A stretch of 38,874 bases of DNA. It comes from an uncultured Bacilli bacterium (lineage in GTDB: Bacteria > Bacillota_I > Bacilli_A > RF39 > UBA660). Below, piece after piece: positions 6,316 through 36,518 of the stretch (position 1 is the stretch's first letter; the number at the start of each line of letters is the position of its first letter). The notes under the pieces are model-generated. The model had not been told where the DNA came from. It ran no database searches and saw only the letters and a program-made list of their open reading frames with translations. The stretch spans positions 1 through 38,874 of the forward strand of contig CALVJB010000010.1 in assembly GCA_944332025.1 (NCBI GenBank). The letters are read 5' to 3'. Position numbers and translations under genes: made by a program.

Positions 6316-6348
6316 AAAAAGAGAAATTTAATCAACATTTCTCTTTTT
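6316..6348 (-). terminator. Intrinsic terminator after the 107-aa gene
   Basis: Twelve-base arms AAAAAGAGAAAT (6316-6327) and ATTTCTCTTTTT (6337-6348) form a perfect stem with a 9-nt loop, and the minus-strand 3' side ends in a long T run. The stop codon of the upstream gene lies inside the stem. It separates the vapD unit from the NAD operon. Confidence 0.75.
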
Positions 6349-9498: not shown

Positions 9499-9526
9499 TA
9501 TATCCCCTCATTTCAAATCTACGCTT

Positions 9527-9555
9527 ATTATACCAGTAATTCTTAAAATTGAAAA
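9527..9555 (-). promoter_or_regulatory. Candidate internal promoter for virD4
   Basis: On the minus strand TTTTCA (9550-9555) is followed after 17 bp by TATAAT (9527-9532) with the extended -10 TGG. It lies entirely in the 66-bp gap before virD4, which is wide for this locus. Confidence 0.6.
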
Positions 9556-9564
9556 CAAATTTAA

Positions 9565-10251: not shown

Positions 10252-10253
10252 AA

Positions 10254-11651: not shown

Positions 11652-11672
11652 ACTTTCACCACCTTTCACAAA

Positions 11673-12655: not shown

Positions 12656-12666
12656 CAAATCATCTC

Positions 12667-14445: not shown

Positions 14446-14484
14446 AATCACCACTTCCCTCTACATACATTACTTTAACTATTT

Positions 14485-16829: not shown

Positions 16830-17127
16830 CTTTAACACACCAACCTTTCCAAATATAATTTCTTCTACCTGTAAAGAAATTATAACACTCTATAATTATA
16901 GTTAAAATATTATGATAATTAGGTATTGGAATAACAAGAAATGCACAAATCAAACCTGGTAAGACTACAAGTATAACTTGCCAATTAGAAGCCACAGGAA
17001 AAGTCATTAAGAGAACAAGAGAAATTAAAACTCCAGTTCCCAGTAAAATTAAATCAAAAGGCTTAAACCACCCAAGTATCAATGTTCCCCTCTTTGTATT
17101 AGCAGGTATTAAATAACTATCATTCAT
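16801..17127 (-). CDS. PrgI/VirB3-like small membrane protein
   Basis: 108 aa with two adjacent transmembrane helices (about 24-44 and 48-70) and a short basic tail (FFTGRRNYIWKGW). The opening SYLIPANTKRGTLILGWF and its position directly before the TraC-like and VirB4 genes fit the PrgI/TrsC/VirB3 slot, an inner-membrane partner of the VirB4 ATPase. The final 30 bases also encode the start of the TraC-like protein in another frame. Confidence 0.75.
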   Translation of the reverse strand: MNDSYLIPANTKRGTLILGWFKPFDLILLGTGVLISLVLLMTFPVASNWQVILVVLPGLICAFLVIPIPNYHNILTIIIECYNFFTGRRNYIWKGWCVKDVQDVKKSN

Positions 17128-17142
17128 CTATTATCACACTCC

Positions 17143-19161: not shown

Positions 19162-19248
19162 AACTTTCACTTCTCTTTCGTTTAAATACTAATTTTAACA
19201 ATCATATCGAATATAATCTAAAATACCAAACACCTTTATTAATACTAT

Positions 19249-20421
19249 TTATCCTAAAGTACAAGTTGTTACATTAATAAATGATAATAAAAGTTGTACT
19301 AAAGTAGGAACCAAAAATAGGCCTAATGCTGCTACTAATCTAATAATCAATTTATTTTGTGCTTCTTTCATTGCTTTTTCATCAAAACCAACGACTGCCT
19401 TTATAAAATCTATTGAACTTAACAATACAACTAAAATAGGTCCTATTATTTTAACATAATTTAATATAGTATTTAGAATCCAACCAATATGCCCTTCCTC
19501 CATATTTATAATATCTGGACAACTAACAGGATTACCAAAATCTCCACTACCTATATCCTCACCTAACTCTTCCCACTCATCATCATACACACCATTTTGT
19601 TCATCTATATTATCAGCAATTTGTTCTACTTCCTGCTCTAAACCACTTATTGTATCCTCATATTGTTTATATTCATCACTATTATTGTCTAGACAACCAG
19701 AATTAGTATAATCTTCTAAAGCTTTCTTAGCAGAATTAACTGTAATACTATAATTATCAGTAATTTGTTTACACTCTCTTCCCCACTTAATATTATCAGC
19801 ACTAGCAACAGTATCACGTTCATCATCAGATAATTCATAATTTTGACAATTCATCTCAATAAGTTTATTTCTATTTCCCTGTAATAAAGCTATAGAATTA
19901 TCTAATGCCTCTTTTTTATTTTGGCACTCTTTAGCAGCTTCACTATTTGGATCATCTTTTATCTCTTGATCCCTTATACTAGTTTCAATATGTTCAGTAA
20001 AACTTTTACCATATTTATCTTTTATTAAATCTACTTGTTTATCAGTATTTGCAGCATATGTAGAAGAACTTGATGATAAATTTTGGGAATTAAAAACCAA
20101 ATACCTAGGGCATGACTTATTCTTTTCAAACCATTCATCCAAAGCAAAACCAGTACCTTTTTCACTATTATAATTACCAATCAAAATTGTCATTTCACCA
20201 TCAGGACCACTATCATACTTACAGCTATATGAAAAGCCTCCAAAAAACCATGAATCATCCCAATTAAAAGTACAATTTATAGTTCCTCCACCACTACCAC
20301 TAAGTTGATTATAATTAACATAATAGCTACATTCTTTAGTAGTAGTTTTAGCATCAACCCCTATAGGACTCATAAATAAACAAAATAATATTACAAAAGT
20401 TACTAAAATCTTCTTTCTCAT
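19249..20421 (-). CDS. Secreted coiled-coil protein fused to a VirB2/TrbC-like membrane module
   Basis: About 390 aa. Start at ATG 20421, six bases after GAGGTG. Signal peptide (MRKKILVTFVILF... to VDAK), an extracellular domain with several cysteines and aromatic residues (25-130), a helical coiled-coil region (about 165-285), then two or three membrane helices (about 313-390). That last part repeats the core of the two small pilin-like proteins upstream: IGPILVVLLSSIDFIKAVVGFDEKAMKEAQNKLI against ILIVLGTLDLGKAVISSDDKAVKEAQSKLI (sequence split here by eye). So it looks like a pilin-type module carrying a large surface domain, perhaps a tip or adhesin subunit. It has its own candidate promoter. 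Confidence 0.7.
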   Translation of the reverse strand: MRKKILVTFVILFCLFMSPIGVDAKTTTKECSYYVNYNQLSGSGGGTINCTFNWDDSWFFGGFSYSCKYDSGPDGEMTILIGNYNSEKGTGFALDEWFEKNKSCPRYLVFNSQNLSSSSSTYAANTDKQVDLIKDKYGKSFTEHIETSIRDQEIKDDPNSEAAKECQNKKEALDNSIALLQGNRNKLIEMNCQNYELSDDERDTVASADNIKWGRECKQITDNYSITVNSAKKALEDYTNSGCLDNNSDEYKQYEDTISGLEQEVEQIADNIDEQNGVYDDEWEELGEDIGSGDFGNPVSCPDIINMEEGHIGWILNTILNYVKIIGPILVVLLSSIDFIKAVVGFDEKAMKEAQNKLIIRLVAALGLFLVPTLVQLLLSFINVTTCTLG

Positions 20422-20446
20422 CAAAGACACCTCAAATCATGATATA

Positions 20447-20475
20447 AGTATACCATCATAAAGAAAAAATAGCAA
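20447..20475 (-). promoter_or_regulatory. Candidate promoter for the coiled-coil/VirB2-like gene
   Basis: On the minus strand TTGCTA (20470-20475) and TATACT (20447-20452), with an extended TGG, are 17 bp apart. The -35 box lies inside the stem of the preceding terminator, so termination and re-initiation are packed into the same 40 bp. Confidence 0.5.
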
Positions 20476-20487
20476 TTAAATTGCTAT
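20463..20487 (-). terminator. Intrinsic terminator after the second small pilin gene
   Basis: On the minus strand an 8-bp stem (ATAGCAAT/ATTGCTAT) with a 3-nt loop is followed by six T. The same hairpin sequence occurs at 20865-20887 after the neighbouring pilin gene, so the gene and its terminator were probably duplicated together. Confidence 0.65.
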
Positions 20488-20497
20488 CAAACACTGT

Positions 20498-20845
20498 CTA
20501 ATTTTCCATAGGATAATTCCAACAATTACTCCACCTAGCTAAGGTTTCATTCTCAGTAATAGAACCAACCATTGTAAATACTAAATTAATAACAGTAACG
20601 AAAAAGAATATAACAATAGCATAAACTAATCTTCTAACAATTCTTTTAAGAAGTTTCTTATTCTCTTTATCATCACTACCTATAACCGCTCTACCTAAAT
20701 CAAAAGTACAAAGGACAATTAAAATAATAGGTATTGCTATCTGTAAAATAGGAAATACCCCTTCTTTAATAACTCTTATAACAGAGTCAAAACCATAACA
20801 ATTACTATCTGTATTTACAAAAACCATATCTAATATATTTATCAT
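20498..20845 (-). CDS. Small VirB2/TrbC-like pilin protein (copy 2)
   Basis: 115 aa. Two strong membrane helices (about 31-51 and 72-95) joined by a short charged loop (GRAVIGSDDKENKKLLKRIVRR), and an aromatic, Cys-containing C-terminus (WSNCWNY). This is the layout of VirB2/TrbC-type T4SS pilins. It is clearly paralogous to the 21272-20895 gene: shared SVIRVIKEG/FIVRIIKNG, FPILQI.IPIILIVL and the SDDK loop. Cysteines before helix 1 and at the end could pair. Followed by its own terminator. Confidence 0.7.
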   Translation of the reverse strand: MINILDMVFVNTDSNCYGFDSVIRVIKEGVFPILQIAIPIILIVLCTFDLGRAVIGSDDKENKKLLKRIVRRLVYAIVIFFFVTVINLVFTMVGSITENETLARWSNCWNYPMEN

Positions 20846-20864
20846 ATGAACACATCCTTATATA

Positions 20865-20887
20865 GAAAAAACAGCAATTAAATTGCT
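20865..20887 (-). terminator. Intrinsic terminator after the first small pilin gene
   Basis: AGCAATTAAATTGCT (20873-20887) forms a 6-bp stem with a 3-nt loop and, on the minus strand, runs into TTTTTTCTATA. Near-copy of the hairpin at 20463-20487. Weak stem, so probably partial termination or 3'-end protection. Confidence 0.55.
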
Positions 20888-20894
20888 ATTTATA

Positions 20895-21272
20895 TTAATC
20901 TTCTTCAGGATTACTCCAACACTCACTCCAATTTTGTAAACCTGGTGCATCATCACCTGCAATATTACCAACCATTGTAAACAATAAGTTAAGAAGTGTT
21001 ACAATAAAGAATACTAATATTGCATAGATACATCTTTTAATTAATTTAGATTGAGCCTCTTTAACTGCTTTATCATCACTAGAGATAACTGCTTTACCTA
21101 AATCTAGAGTACCTAAAACTATTAAAATAATTGGAATACCTATTTGTAAAATAGGAAATAAACCATTTTTAATAATTCTAACTATAAAACCAAATCCACG
21201 ACAAGGTCCATCAGGATTAACATCTCCAGCGTCTAAAATTTGTACCATATTCATTAATAACATACTATTCAT
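20895..21272 (-). CDS. Small VirB2/TrbC-like pilin protein (copy 1)
   Basis: About 125 aa. GGAG sits seven bases before the ATG at 21272, so that start is preferred over the ATG at 21278. Short acidic N-terminus with one Cys (DGPCRGFGF), helix 1 (about 38-60), the charged loop GKAVISSDDKAVKEAQSKLIK, helix 2 (about 80-105) and a Trp/Cys-rich end (LQNWSECWSN). Same family as its downstream paralogue and as the C-terminal module of the 19249-20421 protein; I would place it with VirB2/TrbC-like conjugal pilins. A promoter with perfect -35 directly precedes it, as expected for an abundant subunit. Confidence 0.7.
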   Translation of the reverse strand: MNSMLLMNMVQILDAGDVNPDGPCRGFGFIVRIIKNGLFPILQIGIPIILIVLGTLDLGKAVISSDDKAVKEAQSKLIKRCIYAILVFFIVTLLNLLFTMVGNIAGDDAPGLQNWSECWSNPEED

Positions 21273-21295
21273 AAACATTCTCCTTCACTAACACA

Positions 21296-21328: not shown

Positions 21329-22306
21329 TTATCTTTTAAATAACCCAAATATTTTATTACCACTGCTTTCTTTTGTATTATGAACAAGTCCAACTTTAGA
21401 TAAAAAATCACTAAGTACAGGATTCTTTATTCTATCATTAAGTGGTGGAAGATTATAAAACACTTTTGTTCTACCTTCATACTCAAAATCCATAATATCA
21501 CTATTAGAAAGCAAACTCATATTAAGAATTATTTTCTTTCCTCTTAATTCTTCAAATATTCTTCTATCTCTTCGCATTAATTTATTAAGCTTAATACTAG
21601 AAGGCTCAATCAAATATAAAACATCATCACAAGCTCCTTCATTACTAGAATCATTTAAATCAATAAGTATAATAGCAACACCCTTATGCTTAGCAATTTC
21701 ACTAATCAAAGCATCATCATCAATTGAAACCATATTCTCACTATTAAAATAGAGAAAATCATGTCTATTAACTTCAATAGCCACAACACTCATACCATAA
21801 GTCTGTTCTAACTCTTTTTTTAACATATAAATAAGTGTAGTACTTCCAGCATGATCAGTAATATTTTTTATACCAATTACTCTAGAACCTGATACTACTT
21901 TATCACTTATAGTACTAGACAAATCATTAAGTTGTTGAATATGAGCTACATCTTTATAAGTATTAGGATGATCTAATAAATATTTAATTCCATCAACAGT
22001 AGTAGTAAAATTATAAATTCCCATAGAAATAATTTTAGATAAATAACCACTAGAATTAGAAATTTCATTATTAGGAAGCAAAAGAATGATTTTATCAGCA
22101 TCAAGCCCTATAGATATTTTTTGAATATTAACAATATTCTCATAATCTTTAATAGCTGTAACATCTAAAATCATTCTTGCATAAAAGAAGTTTCTGAACA
22201 TTTCAACTATCTCTTCAGCTGTATGAATACCATCAACGCTCTTAATAACTTCAATATCTAAAGTGGAAAGCATTCCCTTAGCTTCATTAGCAATAATAAC
22301 GTTCAT
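21329..22306 (-). CDS. TadZ/CpaE-like protein with degenerate P-loop
   Basis: 325 aa, soluble. N-terminal ~125 residues form an alpha/beta, receiver-like domain (IIANEAKGML, KIILLLPNNE, ISMGIYNFTTT). The second half resembles a MinD/ParA-type fold: GIKNITDHAGSTTLIYML (about 145-162) sits where Walker A should be, then VVAIEVN and VAIILIDLND. The usual KGGxGKT is replaced by DHAGSTT, keeping TT but lacking both lysines, as in atypical TadZ proteins. TadZ/CpaE localises Tad pilus assembly to a site in the cell. It lies between Tad genes and T4SS genes, so it may place the combined machine. Confidence 0.65.
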   Translation of the reverse strand: MNVIIANEAKGMLSTLDIEVIKSVDGIHTAEEIVEMFRNFFYARMILDVTAIKDYENIVNIQKISIGLDADKIILLLPNNEISNSSGYLSKIISMGIYNFTTTVDGIKYLLDHPNTYKDVAHIQQLNDLSSTISDKVVSGSRVIGIKNITDHAGSTTLIYMLKKELEQTYGMSVVAIEVNRHDFLYFNSENMVSIDDDALISEIAKHKGVAIILIDLNDSSNEGACDDVLYLIEPSSIKLNKLMRRDRRIFEELRGKKIILNMSLLSNSDIMDFEYEGRTKVFYNLPPLNDRIKNPVLSDFLSKVGLVHNTKESSGNKIFGLFKR

Positions 22307-22323
22307 TATATCACTTCCCTCTT

Positions 22324-22767
22324 TTAATAAATAGTTCTAGTCTCACCATAAATTCGTAAGAAATTTCCTAAACCAATTATATTATTAACAACAGGTATAT
22401 CGATATTTACGAAAGTAACAACAGAATAATAATAACCTGTCATATTACCATCGCCACCAGCAATAGTAACCTCATGAGGAATATAACACCAACCATTTTG
22501 ACAACTTGCACTTCCACCATAATCATCTTCAAAAGCTTGAATAATTCTTCCAGGAACTTCATATGTCATTTGATTAATATAACTATTAATTTTATCTAAT
22601 CCCTCTTGATTATAAGGTCCCTCATACTGTTCAATAATATCAACTATCTGATTCTTAACGCGAAATGCCCTAGTATAATTAACAGAATAAGCCATATAAC
22701 CATTAATTAATATAACAAAAGCTAATATAACTTGTAAAACAAATACTTGACCTATTGCATCTCTCAT
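22324..22767 (-). CDS. TadE-like pseudopilin
   Basis: 147 aa. Short N-terminus, one hydrophobic helix at about 8-28 (VFVLQVILAFVILINGYMAY), then an extracellular domain with a Cys pair (SCQNGWC) and a beta-rich end. This is the TadE/TadF-like layout of minor pilins that help Tad pilus assembly. No typical prepilin cleavage site is obvious. Flanked by the 53-aa pilin-like gene and the TadZ-like gene. Confidence 0.6.
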   Translation of the reverse strand: MRDAIGQVFVLQVILAFVILINGYMAYSVNYTRAFRVKNQIVDIIEQYEGPYNQEGLDKINSYINQMTYEVPGRIIQAFEDDYGGSASCQNGWCYIPHEVTIAGGDGNMTGYYYSVVTFVNIDIPVVNNIIGLGNFLRIYGETRTIY

Positions 22768-22796: not shown

Positions 22797-22958
22797 TTAT
22801 GGTGTTATAGTATTATCTTGTGAAGTAACATTAGCATCCCATGTATCTTCAATAGAATTTCTGATTGTAGGCCAAAATATTGCAAAGAATGCTGCAATAA
22901 CACCAATCAAAACAATAGTTACTACAGTCATATTTAACTCTCCAGTCGCTTCTTTCAT
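22797..22958 (-). CDS. 53-aa Flp-pilin-like peptide
   Basis: A small gene with start ATG at 22958, purine-rich AAAGGAGAGAGAG upstream and TAA at 22797-22799. The product begins MKEATGELNM, has one hydrophobic helix (VVTIVLIGVIAAFFAIFW, about 12-29) and a short polar, acidic tail. Size, single helix and position between tadC and a TadE-like gene fit the major Flp pilin slot. A Gly-Glu pair precedes the helix, but a canonical prepilin peptidase site is not clear. It has a dedicated promoter with an extended -10, in keeping with an abundant subunit. Confidence 0.65.
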   Translation of the reverse strand: MKEATGELNMTVVTIVLIGVIAAFFAIFWPTIRNSIEDTWDANVTSQDNTITP

Positions 22959-23039: not shown

Positions 23040-23837
23040 TTACACAGTAATACCTGTACTTCCTATACTTAATAGTAAAGAAGCAAGAATAACTATCATT
23101 ACACTAACACCTGTAACGACAAGCATAATCATTGTCATATTCCCCATATGATCAAGTCTTTCTTTATATTTAGTATCTCTAGCTTTAGCCTGTAAATTAG
23201 AAACAGTACGAGAAAACATTAAAAGTCTTTCTTGTTTCTGTTCTTGTCCACCAAGACCTAAACGATATAAAAGTCTCATCATTCTCATAGAATCCCTAAC
23301 AGGATAAGTATTAGCAAAATCCATATATGGTGTAATACTAGAGTCTCCAGAGTTAATCTTCTCAATCATCTCTCTAAGACCAGGTTTAAAAATATCAGGA
23401 GCATCATTAATACTCTTACCTATCGCAACAGGAACAGTATAATGTTGAATTAATATTTCCAAACTCTTTAAATAGTATGGCAACATTACATCGATTTGAT
23501 GCAAATGTTTTTTATAATATGATTTTAATTGCGTATAAGGCATTTTAAATACCAAAAAAGCAACTAAAACAGCAAGAATAATATTGATTAGACTAACATC
23601 ATCTATAAATAGAAACATAAATATAAAGAATATAGCAAGTGCATACATTACCCTTTTTTGAAATAATTCATTAGGAGAAGCAGAATCACCATATTTAGCA
23701 TAAACTAAGAAATCATAATCATCTTCTCTTAAAATTTCAAAATATTTCTTATTATCATTAATAAATTTATTCTTATCGATAGTTCTATTATAAACTAATA
23801 TAAATAAGAGTATAACAGCAACAAAAACTATTTCCAT
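23040..23837 (-). CDS. tadC: TadC-like pilus assembly membrane protein
   Basis: 265 aa. Membrane helices near 1-17, 65-82, 85-100 and 235-258, with a cytoplasmic helical domain between them (IDVMLPYYLKSLEILIQHYTVPVAIGKS; ... LREMIEKINSGDSSITPYMDFA), the GspF/T2SSF-type fold of TadB/TadC. Works with the CpaF ATPase as the inner-membrane platform. Two bases separate it from the TadB-like gene, confirming coupling. Confidence 0.75.
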   Translation of the reverse strand: MEIVFVAVILLFILVYNRTIDKNKFINDNKKYFEILREDDYDFLVYAKYGDSASPNELFQKRVMYALAIFFIFMFLFIDDVSLINIILAVLVAFLVFKMPYTQLKSYYKKHLHQIDVMLPYYLKSLEILIQHYTVPVAIGKSINDAPDIFKPGLREMIEKINSGDSSITPYMDFANTYPVRDSMRMMRLLYRLGLGGQEQKQERLLMFSRTVSNLQAKARDTKYKERLDHMGNMTMIMLVVTGVSVMIVILASLLLSIGSTGITV

Positions 23838-23839
23838 AA

Positions 23840-24733
23840 CTATTCAACCCCCACATTCTCATTATAATATCTTTCTCCTTTTAAAAGGAAATAACTATTA
23901 AATATGATAATACCATGTAATATAATCTGAACATAAACAGCTTTAATCAATTCAATATAACTTTCAGTACCAAGCATATATTGTATTAACATAACTAATA
24001 GAAATAACATAACACCATATTGTAAGAATTTCTTATGGAAATTAGCTCTATCCATTCTGTCACGATAAACACTCTCTACAAGAGTATCTATATCAAGCTG
24101 CATATTTTCCAAACTTTCTCCTGTGTCTTTAGCACCTTCTTTAGTTATTTGTAAAAACAACTGATGCATATTTTTAACAATATAGTATGGATATTTATCA
24201 CTCATAAAGTTAATCGCACCATCTATTGATCCTTCATCATAAGCCATATCTATCATATGATTAACATCAGATAGTACAGGATCTTCTAGAATGCCAGAAT
24301 CTCTAACACCTTCAAGTGATTTAACAAAACTCTGAGTTGTGGCAAATTCCATAATGGTATTAGTAGTATAAACCTGTATCTGTTCAAAAATAAACTCACT
24401 ATATATTCTTTTACATCTTAAGAAAGATAAGTAAGGAACAAAACAAATAGCAACTATGACATAAATAATAGAAACTATCAAATTATAAAAATACATATAA
24501 GTAACAACACCTGCAAAACCACCAAGTATTAATACTTGAATTAAATACTGTCTTGCCGTATATTCCTGTCCTAATTGTTTTGTCTTTTCTCTTACCACTT
24601 TATATGAATATGGAGCAAATTTATCATAAATCGCCTGTACTTGATCAGTAATATATTTAGAGACATTAGATCCTCTATAATTACGATATAAAATAACTAC
24701 AATAGCAATAGCAAGTAGTAAAAACAATACCAT
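23840..24733 (-). CDS. tadB: TadB-like pilus assembly membrane protein
   Basis: 297 aa. N-terminal helix (3-15), a pair of helices (about 68-110), a cytoplasmic GspF-like helical domain (residues 115-230, with SFVKSLEGVRDSGILEDPVLSD and KEGAKDTGESLENMQLDI), and C-terminal helices near 235-285. Directly downstream of the CpaF ATPase and upstream of tadC, the standard order of Tad loci. GGAGG precedes the ATG. Confidence 0.78.
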   Translation of the reverse strand: MVLFLLLAIAIVVILYRNYRGSNVSKYITDQVQAIYDKFAPYSYKVVREKTKQLGQEYTARQYLIQVLILGGFAGVVTYMYFYNLIVSIIYVIVAICFVPYLSFLRCKRIYSEFIFEQIQVYTTNTIMEFATTQSFVKSLEGVRDSGILEDPVLSDVNHMIDMAYDEGSIDGAINFMSDKYPYYIVKNMHQLFLQITKEGAKDTGESLENMQLDIDTLVESVYRDRMDRANFHKKFLQYGVMLFLLVMLIQYMLGTESYIELIKAVYVQIILHGIIIFNSYFLLKGERYYNENVGVE

Positions 24734-24751: not shown

Positions 24752-26104
24752 TTAAACTATCTCAGTAGAAAAGTCAACTTTAGGTAAATCTTGCCCAACT
24801 TGATTCGTTTGAACATTCGGTGTTACTTCACTATTCAATACACTTTGACTACTTTGAATAACCTGAACATTTTGATTTAACCCACTATTTCCTAAAACCA
24901 CATCACTCTGGTTAAGTAGATTACTTTGATTACTTGTATTAATGTTACTTATATCATTCTCAAAGTTAGGAGATTCTACTACGTTAATCTTAGGTGCACC
25001 TAAAGCATTACTATTTTCATTACTTTGATTATTAATAACATCCATCGAATCCCCTTTAGTAAATAAATTATCAATAAAGATATTTTGATTTTCTAAATAC
25101 TCTTTCAAATGTTTAGTAGGCATATTCTGAACAGGAGCTTTACCAAAAGTCTTCTGATAAAGAATATGAGATTGTGGTTTATTATCATCATCTACATAAA
25201 ACTCTACTACTTCATCTACTTCACGATGAAACTTACCATATTCTTTACTATAATAAGCCTTAATATGTACACCAAGTTGAATATAACGATAAATTGTCGT
25301 TAAGAACTGATCAACATCTATATCACTTTCAAGAAGTGAATACAAACGATAAGGAATAGCACTAGCTTTATCAGCATGTATTGTAGATAAAATATTATGT
25401 CCTGAACTAATAGAGTTACGAACAGCAGTAACCGCTTCTGCACTACGAACTTCTGACAAAAGAATCCATTTAGGATTTTGACGCATACAAGTAACTAAAA
25501 CTTCAGAGTAACTAGCCACATTATTTGTCTTCATTGCAACAATATCACGATGAGGAAAGATTCTATCCAAATGAAGTTCCAAAGTATCTTCTATTGTAAT
25601 AATCTTTTCATTTTCTTTAGTATGACTAGCCAGATATTTAACAAATTCTGTTTTACCAGAACCAGTCTCACCACTAACCATGATATTACAATGACCTTCA
25701 ACACACTTCATTAAAATATCATGAATATTAGCAGTAAAGTAATCTTCACTAATTAACTTTTCTTTATTAAGTCTAATCTTAGCAGGAGTTTTACGGATAA
25801 CTACCGCAATACCATTAGTAGCAATAGAATCATGTACAAAGTTAAGACGTAACTCTGTAGACTCAGCATCAAGAAATGGCTTTGCATTATTAAAAGTTGT
25901 TCCCATAACATTAGAACATTGAAAGGCTAACTTTTCAACAAATGCATCATTTAGCCCTTCAATTTCTACTCTTTTAGAACCTTGAGTTAAAGAACGAACC
26001 CAAATTTGTCCATGATTACAATAAGAAATATCTGTTATATCATCATCTTTAATCAAAGGTTCAAAAAGTCCAAAATCTAACTTGTCAAATATGGCATCGT
26101 TCAT
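24752..26104 (-). CDS. tadA: CpaF/TadA-type secretion ATPase with Asn/Gln-rich tail
   Basis: 450 aa. Hexameric ATPase that powers Tad pilus assembly. N-terminal domain (1-115), Walker A GETGSGKT at 145-152, IITIEDTLELHL (Asp box), the RQNPKWILLSEVRS Walker B region and the GHNILSTIHAD motif (about 232). After about 345 the sequence turns into a low-complexity tail rich in Asn, Gln and Ser with scattered Val-Ile-Gln pieces, ending DFSTEIV. Such a tail is not part of the usual family and may be a flexible docking arm. Ribosome site AAGGGGTG. Confidence 0.9.
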   Translation of the reverse strand: MNDAIFDKLDFGLFEPLIKDDDITDISYCNHGQIWVRSLTQGSKRVEIEGLNDAFVEKLAFQCSNVMGTTFNNAKPFLDAESTELRLNFVHDSIATNGIAVVIRKTPAKIRLNKEKLISEDYFTANIHDILMKCVEGHCNIMVSGETGSGKTEFVKYLASHTKENEKIITIEDTLELHLDRIFPHRDIVAMKTNNVASYSEVLVTCMRQNPKWILLSEVRSAEAVTAVRNSISSGHNILSTIHADKASAIPYRLYSLLESDIDVDQFLTTIYRYIQLGVHIKAYYSKEYGKFHREVDEVVEFYVDDDNKPQSHILYQKTFGKAPVQNMPTKHLKEYLENQNIFIDNLFTKGDSMDVINNQSNENSNALGAPKINVVESPNFENDISNINTSNQSNLLNQSDVVLGNSGLNQNVQVIQSSQSVLNSEVTPNVQTNQVGQDLPKVDFSTEIV

Positions 26105-26126: not shown

Positions 26127-26951
26127 CTATTGTTGTGTATAAGATAAATCTTCTTCAGTCATCGCTGTAACGTTATTAATAAAGTTTCTTAAATCCTCAC
26201 TAGATAACTCTACATCACCAGGTTCATCTTCTAAACTTTCATTAGTAGGAACAGGAATAATTTCAGATTCATAAGCTCTTAAGAAACTAGCTTTACGAAG
26301 TAAAATATGATACTCTTCTGGTACAGCAAATATTATCTGAGAAGGAGCTGTTTTTTCTTCAACATTAGAAAAAACATCATTACCATTACTATCAAATACT
26401 GCTAAAACTTTAACATTAGCAAGTAATCTACCTACCATAATTCTATCATCTGCAATAACAGTACCTTCAGCACCCTGGGCATTTTGAACTTTTAAGTATA
26501 TATCTATATAGTTACCAGGAACTATTTGATTACTATAAGTACTAGCCATATCAACAGATAAGTTATATAAAACATATCCTTTAGGATAATCTAATATTAC
26601 ATTACCAGGTAATTGTTCACTAGATACAACACTTCTTCTATAAAATAAACTTCCTTCTGGAATAACACTATCATAATTAGCATACATATCAATAACATCA
26701 GCACTATTTCTAATGATATTATCATTTAACATAGACTGCGGTATTTCCATAGTACCAACCATATCTTCTGTTATCTGTGTACTAGGATTAATATCTTGCA
26801 TTGCATATGGAACAGTAACAGGTGTAATCGCTTGATTAATACGCATATTATAACCAACATAAATTATTACTATAGCAAGAATAACACCAACTACTGTAAC
26901 AGTATTTCTATTTGTAAGGAATTTCTTTATTCCAACAACTAAATTATTCAT
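26127..26951 (-). CDS. cpaB: CpaB/RcpC-like pilus assembly protein
   Basis: 274 aa. One N-terminal membrane helix (about 18-36), then an extracellular SAF-like domain: PVTVPYAMQDINPSTQITEDM, IPEGSLFYRRSV, LSVDMASTYSNQIVPGNYIDI and the RLLANVKVLAVFD block, all characteristic of Flp pilus assembly protein CpaB/RcpC. Lies directly before the CpaF gene (22-bp gap). In Gram-positive Tad systems it is thought to stabilise the filament base in the wall. Confidence 0.85.
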   Translation of the reverse strand: MNNLVVGIKKFLTNRNTVTVVGVILAIVIIYVGYNMRINQAITPVTVPYAMQDINPSTQITEDMVGTMEIPQSMLNDNIIRNSADVIDMYANYDSVIPEGSLFYRRSVVSSEQLPGNVILDYPKGYVLYNLSVDMASTYSNQIVPGNYIDIYLKVQNAQGAEGTVIADDRIMVGRLLANVKVLAVFDSNGNDVFSNVEEKTAPSQIIFAVPEEYHILLRKASFLRAYESEIIPVPTNESLEDEPGDVELSSEDLRNFINNVTAMTEEDLSYTQQ

Positions 26952-26972: not shown

Positions 26973-27434
26973 TTATCTATCAACTTCACTATAATCTAAT
27001 TCCCCTGCCCTAGTTCTATTAGTAACATATATATTGTTATAATAATTAGTTTCTAGAATCGCATCAATTCTATTAGTAATTCCCAAAGACTCATCATTAA
27101 TACTAGCAGCAGTTTCTGATTTAACTAATATACTAACCTTAGGTGGTGTTTCATTAATATCATAAAAACCTATATCATAAGTTCTACTATTAGCAACATT
27201 TTGAGAAAAACGTCTAATAAAACTTTCAACAAATTTCTCTTTATCCATTCTAACTAGACCGCTTAAGCGGTAATAACCAACGTCTACTGCATCAGTCATT
27301 GCCGCTTCAGTCGTTTCTCTTAATAAATAATAATCAAGTTCATTACCAGTTTGATAACTTTGAGTGATATTTATAACACCAAAAGCAATAATTGCTAAAA
27401 GGATAATACCAACTATTAACATCGCTCTATTCAT
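26973..27434 (-). CDS. TadE-like membrane-anchored protein
   Basis: 153 aa. A hydrophobic helix at the very N-terminus (AMLIVGIILLAIIAFGVINI, 4-23) followed directly by a helical stalk with acidic and Tyr residues, then an extracellular domain with strands (KVSILVKSE) and a polar tail. This looks like a TadE/TadG-type pseudopilin. Four bases separate it from the large cysteine-rich gene, 21 from cpaB. No closer identification possible. Confidence 0.55.
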   Translation of the reverse strand: MNRAMLIVGIILLAIIAFGVINITQSYQTGNELDYYLLRETTEAAMTDAVDVGYYRLSGLVRMDKEKFVESFIRRFSQNVANSRTYDIGFYDINETPPKVSILVKSETAASINDESLGITNRIDAILETNYYNNIYVTNRTRAGELDYSEVDR

Positions 27435-27437
27435 ATA

Positions 27438-30314
27438 TTAATTTCCTCCCTTCAACACTGCACTTTGGGACATATATTCTTGATAACAACTAGTAGTAGT
27501 ATCTATAACATTTGGACAAGTACCATCATCTTCATTATTACATCCTATCAAACCACTCTTAAGTAATTCATTACTATTAAGTACCTTATGAAGTAAGTAA
27601 CTACGATATACTGTAACACCTGCTGTTTTATTTGAACCAGCTGTTAAAACTTCATTGCTATTATCACTAGAAGGCTCAGTATATGCATCATAATCTCTAT
27701 TATAATCTTTTACTTTATTCATAGTCTCAGGTGTTAATCTAATATGATAATCTAGGTATTTATCACCGTCATAAATGCTATCACCTAATGCTTGTATTTC
27801 ATTCATAACTGTTACAGGTTGAACAATATAATCTGGATTTTCAAGATTAGTCGCTTCACAACTCCAGTTAAATCCAGGCTCTCTAGTAGCAGAAGCTACA
27901 GGTTGTAGTGAAGTACCACTATTTCTTAAAGTCTCTAAATTATTTATTAAATTAGAAGCTTGAGTATCTTTATCATTGGCACTAGTTTGTGATGCACTAC
28001 CACCATCAGGGAACATATTATCTAAAGAAATAGGTCTAAAATCATAATCAGTTACAATAGTATCATTACCACCATCATCATCTTTACAATATGGATAATT
28101 TGGATCAGATTCTGGACAATCACAATATGGATAATCTGGATCATCTGCAGGACAACTTCCTGGAGGTTCACATGTAGGATAATAAGGATCTGTTTCTGAA
28201 CAAGTTTCATTATTTTCTGGATTAGGGTTAAGTTCATCATCTATAGCATAGAAACATTCAATATCAAAATCCCAACCAAAGTAACCATAATTATCAATAC
28301 TACCTCTAATATTCATCTCAAGTGAATTATTAATCTCTTCTTTTTGACTATCTGTAAGAACAGATTCATCACCATTTTGAACAACTTTCCAATACCACCA
28401 AGCAGTATTAACAGGAATTGAATTCAATTTAGTACAATACTCATTACCAACATAAGTATAGAAATCTTCAAATCCTGGTTCAATAGAATGAGCAGTTTGA
28501 CCAGTCTTATTATTAACCCAAGTACCTGGGAATGTTATTATATTATGATAATCCCATGGATCATCCTCTCCGTCTTCACATACACCATCTGTAAGAATTA
28601 CCATATCTGGGAAATTACCAGTAACACTATCACCATTCAATTTCTGAGAAGAACTAAATTCTTCTTGCCAATCACTCTTATCAGTATCATTAACACTATC
28701 ATTAGTATCTAAATTATCAACAACGATTTTGTAATCAGTAGTCTCATTAGTACAAGTACCAGAACTTCCTTCACAAGCTGCTTTAGCACTCTCCCATTCT
28801 GCTAATTCTTTTTGATATTGTTGTTCAGCAAGATATTGAGTAAGTACTGTATTAGAAGAACAACTATTTATCCATTTACATGTATCATCACACACATTTG
28901 TATATCCATCAATTGTTTTTCTTTGTAAAAATCCATTAGATCCTGCTGCATATTGTTTCTTACCATGGCTATCACTATAAGATCCATTAAGTTCATTAAT
29001 TGTTGATCTAGTAGCTTCTAATGTTCTAAAGTAATAATAACCTATTTTACTAGAACATGTACCACCTGGAACCCATTTATTACCATTATAATGACCACCA
29101 GGATATTTTTGTTTTTGATTATATAATGCCTCTGCTTGACTTAATGTAAGACTAGCATCTTCTGTAATACAATTATCAGCGATTTGTCTAGCTCTTTGTT
29201 CACCATTTGTTGTATAAACATTAAACTCTAAAAGAGAATTAATAGGAGCAAATGTTGTTTGCCTATTAACAACTTTCTCACTATATGTTTCACCTTTCTC
29301 ATAGACACTAGTATAACATTTATCTATACATGACTGTGTATATTCACCACCATCACACTGATTTATACAAGCATCAAAGTCTTCAGTAGGACCACCTTTA
29401 TCACTTTCATAACCGTTACTAGCAACACATTCTACTGTAGGAACACAAACTGCAGGTTTAGAAGGTCTAGGTGCTGTATATGTATTATTACATTCAACTT
29501 TAGACTTAATTTCTATTAAGTATTGGAAACACATACCAGGCTCAGTAGCAACTGGATCACTAAAGTTAACTTCTATCTCTTCTACACAAGTAGTTGTACA
29601 ATTATTAACAGTTTCAGATTCGCTATGACTATATTTATGCATAGTCTCATAATTATTAGTACTAAAAGCATCACATGTTAATGTATCAGTATTAGTAACA
29701 TCATCTACATTAGTATAACTTGGATCTGTCTCAATAGTAGTACCACCTTGACTAATTTGATAAAGACTCTCTGCTTCATTTATCCAACTACTAACTTCAT
29801 CATAAGAATACTGAACAGATACAGTCTCAGTAAAACAATATTGTACTGCATTTCTCATTGTTTCATTATCAGACCATTTATTACGATAATTTACACATAA
29901 CGCATCATCATATAGTTGATTACGCCCTGTACTATCAGCATAGAAAGTACTTCTACCTACTTCCTTATTCGCTTCACAAACTCCATCATCTTGAACTAAA
30001 TAGAAATAAACAGTTATTCTATTACCCATTTGAGAATCAGGAATAGTAAATGAAAAACTACCACTTTCATCTACTGGATACTGAGTACCATCAAAGCTTG
30101 TAGAATATGCTAAGCCCTGAGCACCAGTATAAGTTACAACATTCCCTGAAATACTATAGCTAAGTTTATTCATATAATTTTCTGCTGTATATCCAGAAGA
30201 ACATTCATTATTAGCAGCATCTACACTTAAAGAACTTGCTAAAGTTCCTAAAGAAGCAGAAACACATAAAGCAATAACTACTAATAATATTTTAAGCCTC
30301 TTCACTTTCTTCAT
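27438..30314 (-). CDS. Large secreted cysteine-rich surface protein
   Basis: 958 aa, not recognised as a known family. Signal peptide (MKKVKRLKILLVVIALCVSA... to VDAA), then a Ser/Thr/Asn/Asp-rich body with about 35 cysteines, often in pairs (CTTTC, CINQC, CIDKC, CDDTC). Near 720-770 there are three tandem units of the type (S/D)DPxYPxC with many Pro and Asp. No C-terminal membrane helix and no LPXTG or NPQTN-like motif. Likely an extracellular, disulfide-rich adhesin or pilus-tip component, by analogy with large proteins encoded beside pilus genes. The start overlaps the end of the sortase gene by 23 bp. Confidence 0.7.
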   Translation of the reverse strand: MKKVKRLKILLVVIALCVSASLGTLASSLSVDAANNECSSGYTAENYMNKLSYSISGNVVTYTGAQGLAYSTSFDGTQYPVDESGSFSFTIPDSQMGNRITVYFYLVQDDGVCEANKEVGRSTFYADSTGRNQLYDDALCVNYRNKWSDNETMRNAVQYCFTETVSVQYSYDEVSSWINEAESLYQISQGGTTIETDPSYTNVDDVTNTDTLTCDAFSTNNYETMHKYSHSESETVNNCTTTCVEEIEVNFSDPVATEPGMCFQYLIEIKSKVECNNTYTAPRPSKPAVCVPTVECVASNGYESDKGGPTEDFDACINQCDGGEYTQSCIDKCYTSVYEKGETYSEKVVNRQTTFAPINSLLEFNVYTTNGEQRARQIADNCITEDASLTLSQAEALYNQKQKYPGGHYNGNKWVPGGTCSSKIGYYYFRTLEATRSTINELNGSYSDSHGKKQYAAGSNGFLQRKTIDGYTNVCDDTCKWINSCSSNTVLTQYLAEQQYQKELAEWESAKAACEGSSGTCTNETTDYKIVVDNLDTNDSVNDTDKSDWQEEFSSSQKLNGDSVTGNFPDMVILTDGVCEDGEDDPWDYHNIITFPGTWVNNKTGQTAHSIEPGFEDFYTYVGNEYCTKLNSIPVNTAWWYWKVVQNGDESVLTDSQKEEINNSLEMNIRGSIDNYGYFGWDFDIECFYAIDDELNPNPENNETCSETDPYYPTCEPPGSCPADDPDYPYCDCPESDPNYPYCKDDDGGNDTIVTDYDFRPISLDNMFPDGGSASQTSANDKDTQASNLINNLETLRNSGTSLQPVASATREPGFNWSCEATNLENPDYIVQPVTVMNEIQALGDSIYDGDKYLDYHIRLTPETMNKVKDYNRDYDAYTEPSSDNSNEVLTAGSNKTAGVTVYRSYLLHKVLNSNELLKSGLIGCNNEDDGTCPNVIDTTTSCYQEYMSQSAVLKGGN

Positions 30315-31074
30315 TTTCTTCCATCCTTTCCTTTATTTTTTCATAGTTATCATTAGTTTTTACTTTTGCATAAATCTTATCCTCACCATCCCTTAACTTC
30401 CTAGCATCTACTCTAAACGAATAACTAGTATCTGCACCATAAAACCTAGTGCAAGTAAACAATGTTAACATTAAATCATCTTCATTAACATCAACATCTA
30501 TATCATACATGCTTTCTCTTTGGGCTTTTTTAATATATCTTTGTTGTTCTTCAGTAGTATATGTATCCATAAAAGAAGCATTCTGATCATCATTTAATAA
30601 TACAACAGCATAAACTCTATAAAGATTGGTATCACCATTACTATCTGTAAATTCAATAAATTGATTGTCTTCAATAAAGTCAGGATAAATAAATGACATT
30701 AACTGCTCAAATCTAACCATAGTATCATCGCCAACAATAGGATTACGAGATACATTTCTTATATTATGAGAGATATAAGCAGGACGATTACCAGTTCCAT
30801 CAGGAATAGAGTTAGTCCAAGCGAAATCATAATCTCCTCTAAGCAAGTCAGTCTCCTCTGTCGCTTGAATTAAAGGTAAATCAATATTAGTACCCTCTAC
30901 TCTTAACCAACCAACAACATTATCCCCATATTTTTTAGCATCTTCTATCTTACTAGATTCATTCTTAACTACAAAATCGCTAGTCCTAAAATTACTTCTA
31001 TAATATGTATAAGCAAGAACAATAGCAATTAAGATAATTAGTACACCTAATAACAATAACACACGTTTCTTCAT
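30292..31074 (-). CDS. Sortase, class B-like
   Basis: 260 aa. N-terminal membrane anchor (4-23), then the sortase barrel: GWLRVEGTNIDLPLIQ, catalytic His103 in YISHNIR, catalytic Cys208 in TLFTCTR and Arg221 in SYSFRVDAR. Sortase B-type features: the long N-terminal region and an extended helical insert between His and Cys (MSFIYPDFIEDNQF, YTTEEQQRYIKKAQRES). Links surface proteins to peptidoglycan or polymerises pilins. No recognisable sorting motif is seen in neighbouring proteins. Acidic C-terminal tail overlaps the start of the cysteine-rich gene. Confidence 0.9.
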   Translation of the reverse strand: MKKRVLLLLGVLIILIAIVLAYTYYRSNFRTSDFVVKNESSKIEDAKKYGDNVVGWLRVEGTNIDLPLIQATEETDLLRGDYDFAWTNSIPDGTGNRPAYISHNIRNVSRNPIVGDDTMVRFEQLMSFIYPDFIEDNQFIEFTDSNGDTNLYRVYAVVLLNDDQNASFMDTYTTEEQQRYIKKAQRESMYDIDVDVNEDDLMLTLFTCTRFYGADTSYSFRVDARKLRDGEDKIYAKVKTNDNYEKIKERMEENEESEEA

Positions 31075-31090: not shown

Positions 31091-32935
31091 TTAATCACTA
31101 ATTGTATATGGATCACTTAAAGTACCATGACCATCACTGATAAATACATCATCTTTTAAATATCCCTTTAATTTAACTCCACTAGTTGTATTATCAGTAA
31201 CATCAGTATAACTAACAGTACCAACTGGATTCATAACAGTCTTAATATTATCTTCACGAGAAGAATCAATAAGCCAATAACCACCATTACTACTATTATC
31301 ACCCTTAGAAGTGAAAATGTCAAATGTTGATGGAATAGTAACTATATTATTATATTTTTTTGTATCATGTTTACCTTGATAAGTAACTCTATTATTATAA
31401 ATTGGAACTTCAATTTCAGTTCTAGTAAATAAATCAGTAGAAACATATCTAGTTATATTATTAATTACCTGATAACCTACATTACCTTCCTTATTAGGAT
31501 TATACACTTTAGAACCACTATTCTGGTAACCAATACTAACTTCTTCTCCATTATTTGTAACAACACCTGTCATAATTATTTCTGTAGTATTATCTGAAGT
31601 AATATCAGCAATTCTCCAAATGTAACCAGAATAACTTATATATTCGCCAACTTGTCTTTCGTTAACTAAAGTATTTCTTCTAGCACTGTTATTCTCAACT
31701 AAAATATAAGGATTATCTATCGTTCCATCTCCATCCAATACTTTAGTATTTTTCTTTAAAGTAACAGCAGGTCTTACATTAAATAAATATTCTTGATTCA
31801 TAGGTTCTGACTTTAATGGATAATCATAAAGACTTGTAAGTGTCCAAGGATTATTATCGCTACCCATATTAGCATACCAAACAATTCCTGCATAATCTAA
31901 AAAACTAAGGTTATTTAATAAAGTATTATTATAATCTTGAATAGACAAGATACCAACTCTTCTCTTATCACTATTTCTAGTACATTCTAAAGTCATATAA
32001 TTATCACTACTTATAACATCATCACACCATGTAGATGAAACAATCAAATCCTGATATTTTTTCTCTAAAAGATTGTAGAAATAATCATTTAACCAACTAT
32101 CTAACGAACTACCTGCAAATCTACCATCATTAGTATAATCAACACTTGCAAGTAACTCATCACTTGCTATAGTTACTGTATTATCATCATTAACTTTAAC
32201 AATTCTAAATATCATATTATTAAACATTACATAATTATTTAAAGGATCTCCTTTATAATAATTATTAGTATCAACAGTTGCCCTCTTAACAACACTACTT
32301 AAGCTCTCTTCTACAATAACTTTTCTTGTAACTCTTCCCTCGTTATTTAAACTATCATTAACAGTATAGACAATCTCATAAGTACCAACTGTACTAGTAT
32401 CAACTTCTCCTCTTATTCTAACATTATCTATAGAAATATCACCATCAGTATCATCTCTAACACTCTTAACGCCCTGTTCAGTGTACTCTTCTCCCCTATT
32501 TAATCTAATAGTAGTATCACCATTTAATGTAATAACAGGTCCTTCATGATCTACATCAGATTCATACTTACCACATTTTAAATAGGTATAGTATTCATAA
32601 CTACCATTATCACCTATAACCACTTTAACATTAGATTCATCCATATCACAAGATTTATTATTATAAGGCTCATATAATCCTTCTAAGTACTCTTGTTTAA
32701 CTAAAGTACGTAAAGAAACAGAAATAACTCTTCCCTCTTCACTAGGAAGAGTATTTCTATTAATCTCGTAATACCTTTCTCCCGCTTCACTAAGCATCCT
32801 TTCATTTTCTTTAAAGACCCTATTAGGATAAAGGTATAAAAACCAAACTAATAATAAAACTGCAATTATAACTACAACTAAAACTATAATTCTAATTATT
32901 TTCTTCTTATCAAAACCTCTTTTTTTCTTCTTCAT
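31091..32935 (-). CDS. Membrane-anchored Ig-like (DUF5011) protein with two repeated C-terminal domains
   Basis: 614 aa. Very basic N-terminus (MKKKKRGFDKKK), transmembrane helix (about 13-33), then a pseudopilin-like helix region (RVFKENERMLSEAGERYYEI ... SVSLRTLVKQEYL). Residues 130-210 read as one DUF5011/HYR-type Ig domain (GPVITLNGDTTIRLNRGEEY, VGTYEIVYTVND). The rest contains two domains with similar ends, DGDGTIDNPYIL and DGHGTLSDPYTI, and a shared 'IWRI/IFRI ... VTI' opening, resembling DUF6273-type repeats. Extracellular; function unknown, probably a surface or structural part of the filament system. Fourteen bp upstream ends the first gene of the locus. Confidence 0.65.
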   Translation of the reverse strand: MKKKKRGFDKKKIIRIIVLVVVIIAVLLLVWFLYLYPNRVFKENERMLSEAGERYYEINRNTLPSEEGRVISVSLRTLVKQEYLEGLYEPYNNKSCDMDESNVKVVIGDNGSYEYYTYLKCGKYESDVDHEGPVITLNGDTTIRLNRGEEYTEQGVKSVRDDTDGDISIDNVRIRGEVDTSTVGTYEIVYTVNDSLNNEGRVTRKVIVEESLSSVVKRATVDTNNYYKGDPLNNYVMFNNMIFRIVKVNDDNTVTIASDELLASVDYTNDGRFAGSSLDSWLNDYFYNLLEKKYQDLIVSSTWCDDVISSDNYMTLECTRNSDKRRVGILSIQDYNNTLLNNLSFLDYAGIVWYANMGSDNNPWTLTSLYDYPLKSEPMNQEYLFNVRPAVTLKKNTKVLDGDGTIDNPYILVENNSARRNTLVNERQVGEYISYSGYIWRIADITSDNTTEIIMTGVVTNNGEEVSIGYQNSGSKVYNPNKEGNVGYQVINNITRYVSTDLFTRTEIEVPIYNNRVTYQGKHDTKKYNNIVTIPSTFDIFTSKGDNSSNGGYWLIDSSREDNIKTVMNPVGTVSYTDVTDNTTSGVKLKGYLKDDVFISDGHGTLSDPYTISD

Positions 32936-32948: not shown

Positions 32949-34478
32949 CTATCTTAAATGATAAATATATCTTTCATCTCTAAAAATAAATACAAGTCTT
33001 AATGTTCCATCATCTTTAATATCGTTTGGAACACTGAAATATGCATAATTTCCATTGTAGTTGTTAACCAGAGATTTAGGTTCTATACTCTGCATCTTAC
33101 CATTATTATCCTCATATCTAATTTTAGCATATATATTAGAAAAGTCAACAAAACTTTTACCTGTAAAATTATTACTAACGAAAGAAATCTCTAAAATTTT
33201 ATTACTAGATGTTAAAGGTAAATCCATCATTCCACAACTAATATTATTACATGAATACCTACTATAAGTTGTCTCATTTGTAAGTTTAAAATCTGTAATT
33301 GTAATATTGTTACCATCAGGAAATTCAAGTCTCTCAGTTATTTTAGCCTCTCCTTTAGTTTTTATTTCTCTAACATCATCAACAGAAAGTTTTACTTTTT
33401 TTACCAATACTCCATTACTAACATCTGGATAATACAATACAAATTTACTAACATCTATATCCTGTGGAACCCTATATATTAGAATAAAGGTAGTATCATC
33501 ACCTGTATCAAGTCTTTTACCATTATAGGCACTACCTAAATCTTGAAAGTAACCGTAGATATTACCTATATAATGAAACTCATCACTTCTATTCATTACT
33601 CTAAATCTATCTAAATTTATATTTCTTATAGTTGCAGTATTTTTAACAGTAAGATTAATAACTAAATAGGCACTTTTTTCACTTAAAACAGTACCATGAC
33701 TATCTTTATCAGTAAGATAACTAGCATTAACAGTAATATCATAATAATTTGCAGTAAAAGTATTTCCTTCTCTATAAGTTCTATTTAAAACTCCAAAATA
33801 ATAATATGTATACCCAGTAAGAGAAACAAATAAAATTATTATTATAGTATTACAGACAAGTTTATGTTCATAATAAACATACTTAACATTTCTAAAGAAT
33901 CTTTTAATATTTCTTGTAATCTTATCTTTATCAAATTCTATATTAACTTCAAATTCTTCTCTATCTTCTTCTTTTATATCTAAATATTCTTCATCGTCTT
34001 TAAATCCAAATTGTTTTAAATCTAATCCTAAAAACCTAATACCAAAAATTATAAAGACAACATACTGAACGAAAGATACAATATTTAATAAATCTCGCCC
34101 CGCCATTATAGGAGTAATACTAGAAAGATCATCATAACCATTAAAATAACTTCTAACAAAAATTAACACTCCAAGCATTAAGATATATTCAGCAATAGGT
34201 ATTAAATATATCTTCCAAGGTTTCTTTTTATAACGAAGTAAAATGATTAAGACTACACTAATTGCAACAACAACAAGAATAGAAATAATTAATAAAGGAT
34301 TAATATAATCACTAATAGGCTCATAATAATCATTATAACTTTCTGTAGCTAAAAAGTTTGAAACAAAGCTTCTTAAAGACATAATTTTATAAAAGATATA
34401 AGCACAGAGTAATATTAATATTAAATGTATTCTTTGAAAGTATTGTATTAAAAGAGCATATGGTTTTCTTAATATCAT
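32949..34478 (-). CDS. Polytopic membrane protein with extracellular beta domain
   Basis: 509 aa, first gene of the 27-kb locus. Helices at about 17-35, 57-83, 90-110, 130-150 and 205-228 are separated by a highly acidic cytoplasmic loop (about 160-185). The C-terminal 270 residues lie outside and look beta-rich; the stretch AYLVINLTVKNTATIRNINLDRF is reminiscent of DUF4352-type Ig folds. Two close cysteines (CNNISC) could form a disulfide. I do not recognise the full-length protein. Ribosome site GGGGTG six bases before ATG; promoter at 34503-34531. Confidence 0.6.
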   Translation of the reverse strand: MILRKPYALLIQYFQRIHLILILLCAYIFYKIMSLRSFVSNFLATESYNDYYEPISDYINPLLIISILVVVAISVVLIILLRYKKKPWKIYLIPIAEYILMLGVLIFVRSYFNGYDDLSSITPIMAGRDLLNIVSFVQYVVFIIFGIRFLGLDLKQFGFKDDEEYLDIKEEDREEFEVNIEFDKDKITRNIKRFFRNVKYVYYEHKLVCNTIIIILFVSLTGYTYYYFGVLNRTYREGNTFTANYYDITVNASYLTDKDSHGTVLSEKSAYLVINLTVKNTATIRNINLDRFRVMNRSDEFHYIGNIYGYFQDLGSAYNGKRLDTGDDTTFILIYRVPQDIDVSKFVLYYPDVSNGVLVKKVKLSVDDVREIKTKGEAKITERLEFPDGNNITITDFKLTNETTYSRYSCNNISCGMMDLPLTSSNKILEISFVSNNFTGKSFVDFSNIYAKIRYEDNNGKMQSIEPKSLVNNYNGNYAYFSVPNDIKDDGTLRLVFIFRDERYIYHLR

Positions 34479-34539: not shown

Positions 34540-34568
34540 TTGTTTTTATTTACTGTTCTTGCTATAAT
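34540..34568 (+). promoter_or_regulatory. Promoter of the thioredoxin-like lipoprotein gene
   Basis: TTGTTT (34540-34545) and TATAAT (34563-34568) with extended TGC, spaced by 17 bp. The perfect -10 and spacing make it the likely start of the plus-strand gene. Confidence 0.65.
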
Positions 34569-34590
34569 ACTTAAGGAAAGTAGTGATAAA

Positions 34591-34995
34591 ATGAAAAAGA
34601 AAATTAAGTATTTATTAATAGGTATCTTAGCCATGTTTTTAACAGGATGCTCTAATAGTAATGTTATTACTGACATTGATTATAGTAAGTTAGAAGAAAT
34701 GATTGATAATAAAGAAAGCTTTATTTTAGAGGTTGTCCAAACAGGATGTTCTCACTGTGAGGAATTTTCTCCAAGGTTTAGAACAGTCTTAAAGACAAAT
34801 GACAAAGAAGCCTATTCTCTTAATTTATATAATATGACAGATGAAGAAAGAAAAAAATTCAATGAACTAACAACTAGTGTATCAGGAACCCCTACTGTTC
34901 TATATTTTGAAAATGGTAAAGAAACATCACACAAAATAAATGGTGCCGTAGATAATGAAAATATAGAAGAATTTTTAGATAATATAGAAAAATAA
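34591..34995 (+). CDS. Thioredoxin-like lipoprotein
   Basis: 134 aa. Start at ATG 34591 (MKKKIKYLLIG), preceded by AAGGAAAG; a longer upstream frame would place the promoter inside the gene. Lipobox LTGC gives lipidated Cys20. Thioredoxin fold with the redox motif CSHC at 53-56 (VVQTGCSHCEEFSP) and a cis-proline SGTPTVLYFENG. Acts outside the membrane as a disulfide oxidoreductase or reductase. The only plus-strand gene, divergent from the secretion locus, whose products are cysteine-rich; this suggests, but does not prove, a folding role for them. Ends in a bidirectional terminator shared with typA DNA. Confidence 0.85.
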   Translation: MKKKIKYLLIGILAMFLTGCSNSNVITDIDYSKLEEMIDNKESFILEVVQTGCSHCEEFSPRFRTVLKTNDKEAYSLNLYNMTDEERKKFNELTTSVSGTPTVLYFENGKETSHKINGAVDNENIEEFLDNIEK

Positions 34996-36417: not shown

Positions 36418-36518
36418 ATATATCACTCCTAACTGATGTGAATAGTATAACACACTATCTATAATAACGGCAGCAAATTTTCTTTAATCATAAATATTAC
36501 TATTATCTATCTAACAAC

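Follow-up and report, generated by a model that had tools for sequence, protein, structure and literature searches.

The closest described counterpart of the protein analysed here is known from F-type conjugation, where TraN has 22 conserved cysteines and a variable tip (PMC9246713), and where the putative clients of TrbB, a thioredoxin-fold isomerase, include TraN (PMC11315126). Comparison is also invited by Tad (Flp) pili with their minor pilin or tip proteins TadE, TadF and TadG, and by the sortase-assembled pili of Gram-positive bacteria. For anaerobic Gram-positives it has been stated that cysteine is avoided in exported proteins (PMC12453122), and the papers on RF39-type genomes (PMC7301438, PMC10868615) do not mention Tad pili, while sortases and a thin wall are noted in one of the two.

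The window, meaning the whole 38.9-kb contig that was analysed, belongs to a 1.59-Mb genome (95% complete, 101 contigs) and encodes on its minus strand, at 27438..30314, a giant cysteine-rich and presumably exported protein of 958 residues. The first-pass annotation had counted about 35 cysteines, and there are indeed 36, of which C17 lies within the predicted Sec-type signal peptide (residues 1-34, 30213..30314, minus strand, cleavage near VDA-AN), leaving 35 in the mature protein. A hydrophobic N-terminus is found in 98% of the homologues, and the signal region forms a helix at residues 7-25 in the predicted model. At a cysteine frequency of 1%, 9.6 cysteines would be expected in a protein of this length, and the probability of at least 36 is about 5e-11. 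In a sample of 20 x 20 kb (400 kb) of the same genome together with the window, the giant has the highest cysteine content among about 390 ORFs (35 counted cysteines, the runner-up ORFs having 15 each), and among long proteins its 3.8% has no equal. The predicted secreted or anchored proteins of that sample have pooled 0.90% cysteine, as compared to 1.07% in cytosolic proteins, and exported proteins are thus not generally rich in cysteine. Cysteine is moderately abundant in two further exported proteins that the cluster encodes (15 Cys in 595 residues and 11 Cys in 393 residues). The lack of an anchor that had been remarked on first reading extends to the family, as a C-terminal membrane or hydrophobic segment occurs in none of 82 homologues.

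Like TraN with TrbB, the giant is a large, cysteine-rich, variable and probably exported protein that is encoded together with a type IV secretion system (T4SS) and a thioredoxin-fold protein, and like TraN it has at least 20 conserved cysteines, with loss in pairs. Unlike TraN, it has no family match, its mature cysteine count is odd whereas the 22 of TraN is even, its host is a monoderm without outer membrane or outer-membrane receptors, and it is encoded on the Tad side of the cluster. TraN with TrbB thus appears to be the nearest functional analogue of the giant and not a homologue.

The cluster is of a hybrid type, and the following genes are all on the minus strand. It begins with a 509-residue membrane protein with a DUF4352-like domain (32949..34478), followed by a surface Ig-like protein of 614 residues that is a conserved neighbour (31091..32935), a class B sortase-like transpeptidase (30292..31074), the giant, and a DUF5411 protein that may be pseudopilin-like, judged by the layout (26973..27434). 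Profile comparisons of DUF5411 with the TadE-like and the VirB2-like protein gave no relation. Then come CpaB/RcpC (26127..26951; RcpC 9e-7, over the cut-off), a TadA/CpaF-type ATPase (24752..26104; T2SSE 7e-28, TadA-family model 1e-32, below the equivalog cut-off), and two genes for TadB- and TadC-like platform proteins (23040..24733), which are assigned by position and topology as Pfam gave no name. Between tadC and a TadE-like gene lies a candidate for an Flp-like pilin of 53 residues (22797..22958), an ORF below the 80-aa cut-off that has no family match and is conserved in 17 loci, with the motif MK-x-ATGELN-x-TVxTI. The TadE-like (147 aa) and TadZ-like (325 aa) proteins (21329..22767) are named by position and have no match among PDB sequences. 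The T4SS half (7282..21278) encodes VirB2-like pilins, a cysteine-rich protein of 393 residues, TrbL/VirB6 (by TrbL_4), a PrgI-like protein, VirB4 in two ORFs (by TraG P-loop and AAA_10), M23 and NlpC-like proteins, and VirD4, which belongs to the CD1115 family over the cut-off. Of 58 genomes, 55 encode a prepilin peptidase, and in the window's genome a peptidase A24 is encoded outside the cluster. As a separate observation, the M23 peptidase and the NlpC-like protein (10254-14454, minus strand) are cell-wall hydrolases within the T4SS half, and the M23 protein has 15 cysteines.

This arrangement is conserved. The order of the 509-residue protein, the Ig-like protein, sortase, giant, DUF5411, CpaB, TadA, TadB and TadC, continuing with the TadE-like and TadZ-like proteins, the VirB2-like protein, the cysteine-rich membrane protein, TrbL/VirB6, the PrgI-like protein and VirB4, with VirD4 further on, is nearly universal among the relatives. 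The giant gene is found directly 5' of DUF5411-CpaB-TadA-TadB-TadC in almost every locus, usually behind the class B sortase, and this order recurs across genera even where only the C-terminal module of the giant can be recognised. The linkage to sortase and Tad genes that the first-pass annotation had pointed to therefore holds almost always for the Tad genes, but the sortase is replaced in distant genera by a type I membrane protein of 192-254 residues with about 4 cysteines, and some cassettes lie away from Tad genes. Such displaced giant cassettes are found in L163, L164, L154 and L158; displaced and/or tandem copies occur in L163, L151, L154, L158, L109 and L129; and in the duplicated cassettes of L163 and L151 the giant and DUF5411 stay together. 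Distant giants have 18-60 cysteines in 574-1439 residues and keep the position before DUF5411. A homology of the 4-Cys membrane protein to residues 38-160 of the giant may be suggested; as a firm match it was set aside, as hhalign aligned a short motif only, with probabilities of 5.6% and 80% in two set-ups. L223 (G057:C7) has the pair of 4-Cys membrane protein and giant twice in tandem, next to a thioredoxin lipoprotein and DUF5411, and its two giants contain 51 and 53 cysteines.

In having TadA, TadB/C-like proteins, CpaB/RcpC and a short Flp-like pilin candidate, the cluster resembles those of Tad pili, and the layout of a large, probably exported protein beside a short membrane protein recalls that of their minor pilin or tip proteins TadE, TadF and TadG. 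It differs in that the giant has no TadE or TadG match and in that Tad, T4SS and sortase genes are fused into one cluster. To our knowledge, no TadG has a cysteine count anywhere near that of the giant. With the sortase-assembled pili it shares the sortase gene that adjoins the giant gene and a large surface protein that is presumed to act away from the cell, but a sorting signal near the C-terminus was found in none of the 32 window proteins scanned, the giant included, and in distant genera the sortase is absent at this site. The neighbourhood of the T4SS genes, which come next in the same strand order, also raises the question of whether the giant stabilises cell-to-cell contact for the VirB4/VirD4 half, as TraN with TrbB does in F-type conjugation. 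This would accord with the cysteines and the variable tip of TraN, with TraN being among the putative clients of TrbB, with the cysteine-rich nature of other exported proteins on the T4SS side (11 cysteines in the 393-residue protein, 15 in the M23 protein) and with a weak TrbB match of the thioredoxin-fold lipoprotein described below (1.5e-4). The giant lies, however, in the Tad half beside DUF5411 and travels with it, L159 (on a contig of 1.26 Mb) keeps the giant and the Tad genes while VirB4 is absent from the 20 kb read, the giant has no TraN family match, and there is no relaxase match among the window proteins scanned, which is why a role as T4SS contact factor is considered rather unlikely, if still the foremost of the alternatives.

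The cysteines, on whose conservation the first-pass reading of a disulfide-rich protein hung, turned out to be much better conserved than the other residues. Each of 21 cysteines recurs in at least 97% of 82 homologues, whose median identity is 29%, and in an alignment of 68 sequences 16 of the 37 invariant positions are cysteines. The mature cysteine count varies from 25 to 41, and it is odd in 74 of the 82 homologues and in 40 of the 48 that have less than 50% mutual identity, a statistic that is weakened by the shared descent of the homologues; of the eight homologues with an even count, two or three reach the end of a contig. As a control, odd counts of other amino acids occur in a fraction of 0.38-0.61 of the sequences. 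A number that varies while its parity stays constant points to gain and loss in pairs. None of the 82 homologues has only one of Cys 925 and 933 (phi 1.0), Cys 819 and 943 co-occur almost always (phi 0.95), and Cys 140 and 160 do so in part, so that presence and absence yield only two or three safe disulfide pairs, the remaining cysteines not being pairable in this way because they are invariant. Of the distant giants, 10 have an even count and 9 an odd one, and the odd rule is thus limited to the sortase-linked branch. Conservation, odd count and paired loss together suggest extensive disulfide bonding, and we infer that all cysteines of the giant but one are paired as disulfides. It is conceivable that the cysteines hold zinc or iron-sulfur clusters instead, as CX3C and CX2-5C spacings are frequent and the hosts are presumably anaerobes without Dsb enzymes, but the paired gain and loss, the presence of a signal peptide and the repeated proximity of the thioredoxin lipoprotein gene fit disulfides better, and metal binding is therefore regarded as very improbable.

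Disulfide formation would have to take place in a setting in which the usual enzymes are absent. VKOR was found in none of 78 genomes, DsbB in none of 58 and DSBA in none of 58, and every one of these searches included genomes that served as positive controls; BdbD-type Thioredoxin_4 scored over the cut-off in 2 of 78 genomes, the window's genome not being one of them, and a DsbD/CcdA-type membrane protein is encoded in 7 of 58 genomes, including that of the window. Divergent from the cluster, the window encodes on its plus strand (34540..34995, likely ATG start at 34591) a thioredoxin-fold lipoprotein with the motif CSHC (PF00085, 1.2e-8). Its best NCBIfam matches are a PDI domain (5e-11) and the PedC/BrcD disulfide isomerase (4e-10), both below the equivalog cut-offs; C70, C73 and T-P118 are invariant in its relatives, and the lipobox cysteine is nearly so. 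With the thioredoxin fold, a CXXC motif and predicted export, it has the features of a Dsb-type protein. Of 98 family genomes, 83 encode a relative, frequently in divergent orientation to the cluster, and in 31 loci, mostly of close relatives, a distance of 4-137 bp separates this divergent gene from the first gene of the cluster. As a check for bias, 20 regions from other genera were chosen by the lipoprotein score only; the lipoprotein gene touches the giant cassette or the start of the cluster (509-residue protein, Ig-like protein, class B sortase) in 9 of them, is near Tad genes in 2 and lies elsewhere in 9. The link to the cluster is thus recurrent but not universal. The lipoprotein can be seen as a candidate disulfide oxidoreductase or isomerase for these Dsb-less bacteria, and because the usual Dsb enzymes are missing, it may be this protein that handles the disulfides of the giant.

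No match of the giant was found in Pfam (E 0.1), NCBIfam, PHROGs or among PDB sequences, including the TraN, TadE and TadG families. AlphaFold2 gave moderate confidence only for the whole protein (pLDDT 76.7, pTM 0.52) and pLDDT 78.8 and pTM 0.65 for the C-terminal module; structure comparison revealed no significant known fold and no adhesin or pilin, and the model of the C-terminal module had no fold match either. A Foldseek hit of the full model to LacZ (TM 0.07) was rejected as multi-domain noise. In the sequence-variable N-terminal domain (residues 38-127, 29934..30203, minus strand as for the following parts), VIA-align matched residues 42-126 to Ig-like structures at a Z of at most 6.8, which is below the informative level for so common a fold, and this segment may be said to have an Ig- or FnIII-like look in the model. 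It is followed by a conserved cysteine-rich core in two parts, residues 205-345 (29280..29702) and 465-690 (28245..28922), the first of which contains a twin CX3C-X8-CX3C helical hairpin (C316-C333, 29316..29369) that is present in 68 of 68 aligned homologues, and, behind the DPxYPxC linker, by the C-terminal module (residues 759-958, 27441..28040), which is shared more widely within the family than any other part. A thioester-domain motif was considered as well; a loose pattern occurs only in the distant giant of L155 and in 3 of 82 orthologues, and the window protein lacks it. In L155 (7308-10337, plus strand), the motif reads ALCLDPG ... SQIVAWQW and resembles the thioester domains that are a feature of covalent host adhesins.

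The DPxYPxC linker (residues 709-743, 28086..28190) is hypervariable and restricted to the genus level. The three units that had been described as tandem repeats are present (DPYYPTC, DPDYPYC and DPNYPYC at residues 709, 725 and 737), but their spacing is uneven, TRF finds only 1.9 copies of a 36-bp unit in this region, and as only 9 of 82 homologues have them, in 1 to 3 copies and all among the window's close relatives, they are no feature of the family. Variability is not confined to the linker. The N-terminal 200 residues have identities of 0.38-0.59 among close relatives, whereas the C-terminal module and most of core part 2 have mostly 0.65-0.80, and with 51% identity within the genus and 27% outside, the giant is the fastest-evolving conserved gene of the cluster, as compared to 81-97% within the genus for TadA, TadB, TadC, VirB4, CpaB and DUF5411 (TadA: 92% within, 81% outside).

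As the DUF5411/Tad linkage, the export signal, the missing anchor, the fast N-terminal half and the conserved C-terminal module best fit a contact function at a tip, the giant may mediate contact at the cell surface, most likely as the tip adhesin or as a tip-complex protein of the Tad-type pilus encoded in the same cluster, a reading to which we give roughly an even chance. The idea of a filament or tip component, already put forward in the first-pass annotation, is thus a plausible one. The giant would be exported by Sec and its signal peptide removed, nearly all cysteines would form disulfides with one left for an intermolecular bond, and the neighbouring lipoprotein would oxidise or shuffle these bonds, as the gene neighbourhood suggests. 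The C-terminal module could then dock on conserved parts of the pilus, with DUF5411 as the best candidate partner, and the variable N-terminal half, judged by its fast evolution, would meet other cells, mucus or a host surface. Alternatively, the odd cysteine could serve to cross-link a structural protein of the wall or envelope into a mesh around the machine or the cell, without any adhesion. The odd count, the large size, and the lack of an anchor and of a known adhesin domain would suit such a protein, and RF39-type cells have been predicted to be thin-walled (PMC10868615), but faster evolution than that of the machine genes is unusual for a lattice protein, most genomes have one giant copy per cluster, and the linkage to pilus genes is tight, so that an envelope mesh is an improbable explanation, somewhat more so than the T4SS contact factor.

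Named relatives include Candidatus Onthousia, Candidatus Faecimonas and uncultured Bacilli or Tenericutes, many of them from animal guts, all of which we take to be GTDB order RF39. BLAST-level relatives of the giant occur in 23 of 145 family genomes, and its profile matches 102 of 288 genomes, many of the distant matches covering the C-terminal module only. As the profile of this module matches 30 of 38 sampled family genomes and none of 258 other Bacilli, the gene family is, as far as sampled, restricted to the window's own lineage. DUF5411 behaves similarly (over the cut-off in 23 of 25 sampled family genomes and in 0 of 173 others); in 20 of these 23 genomes it adjoins a match of the C-terminal module, and two of the remaining three carry a cysteine-rich ORF beside it. 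Collections of plasmids and phages contain no relative of the giant, and a mobile-element origin is thus unsupported.

An uncultured gut lineage thus conserves 25 to 41 cysteines in one probable surface protein without the standard disulfide machinery. If its proposed maturation and role are confirmed, disulfide formation that does without DsbA, DsbB or VKOR could be studied on a defined substrate together with a candidate enzyme, and a likely contact protein would be known for this group of gut bacteria, which is common but poorly characterised. More tentatively, and with clearly less confidence than in a tip function as such, small-genome gut Bacilli might throughout the order carry a hybrid Tad-T4SS machine whose tip adhesins diversify fast and are locked by disulfides; these adhesins would be matured by a thioredoxin-fold lipoprotein dedicated to the task, in cells that lack DsbA, DsbB and VKOR, and their single odd cysteine would form a covalent link to the pilus or a partner.

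The flanks of the cluster hold two further features. Between the cluster and typA lies a gene for an Abi_2 family protein (35422-36453, minus strand; PF07751, 5e-24), possibly an abortive-infection gene, and just beyond VirD4 (330-6670, minus strand) there are NAD salvage genes for NAD synthetase, nicotinate phosphoribosyltransferase and a nicotinamidase-like protein.
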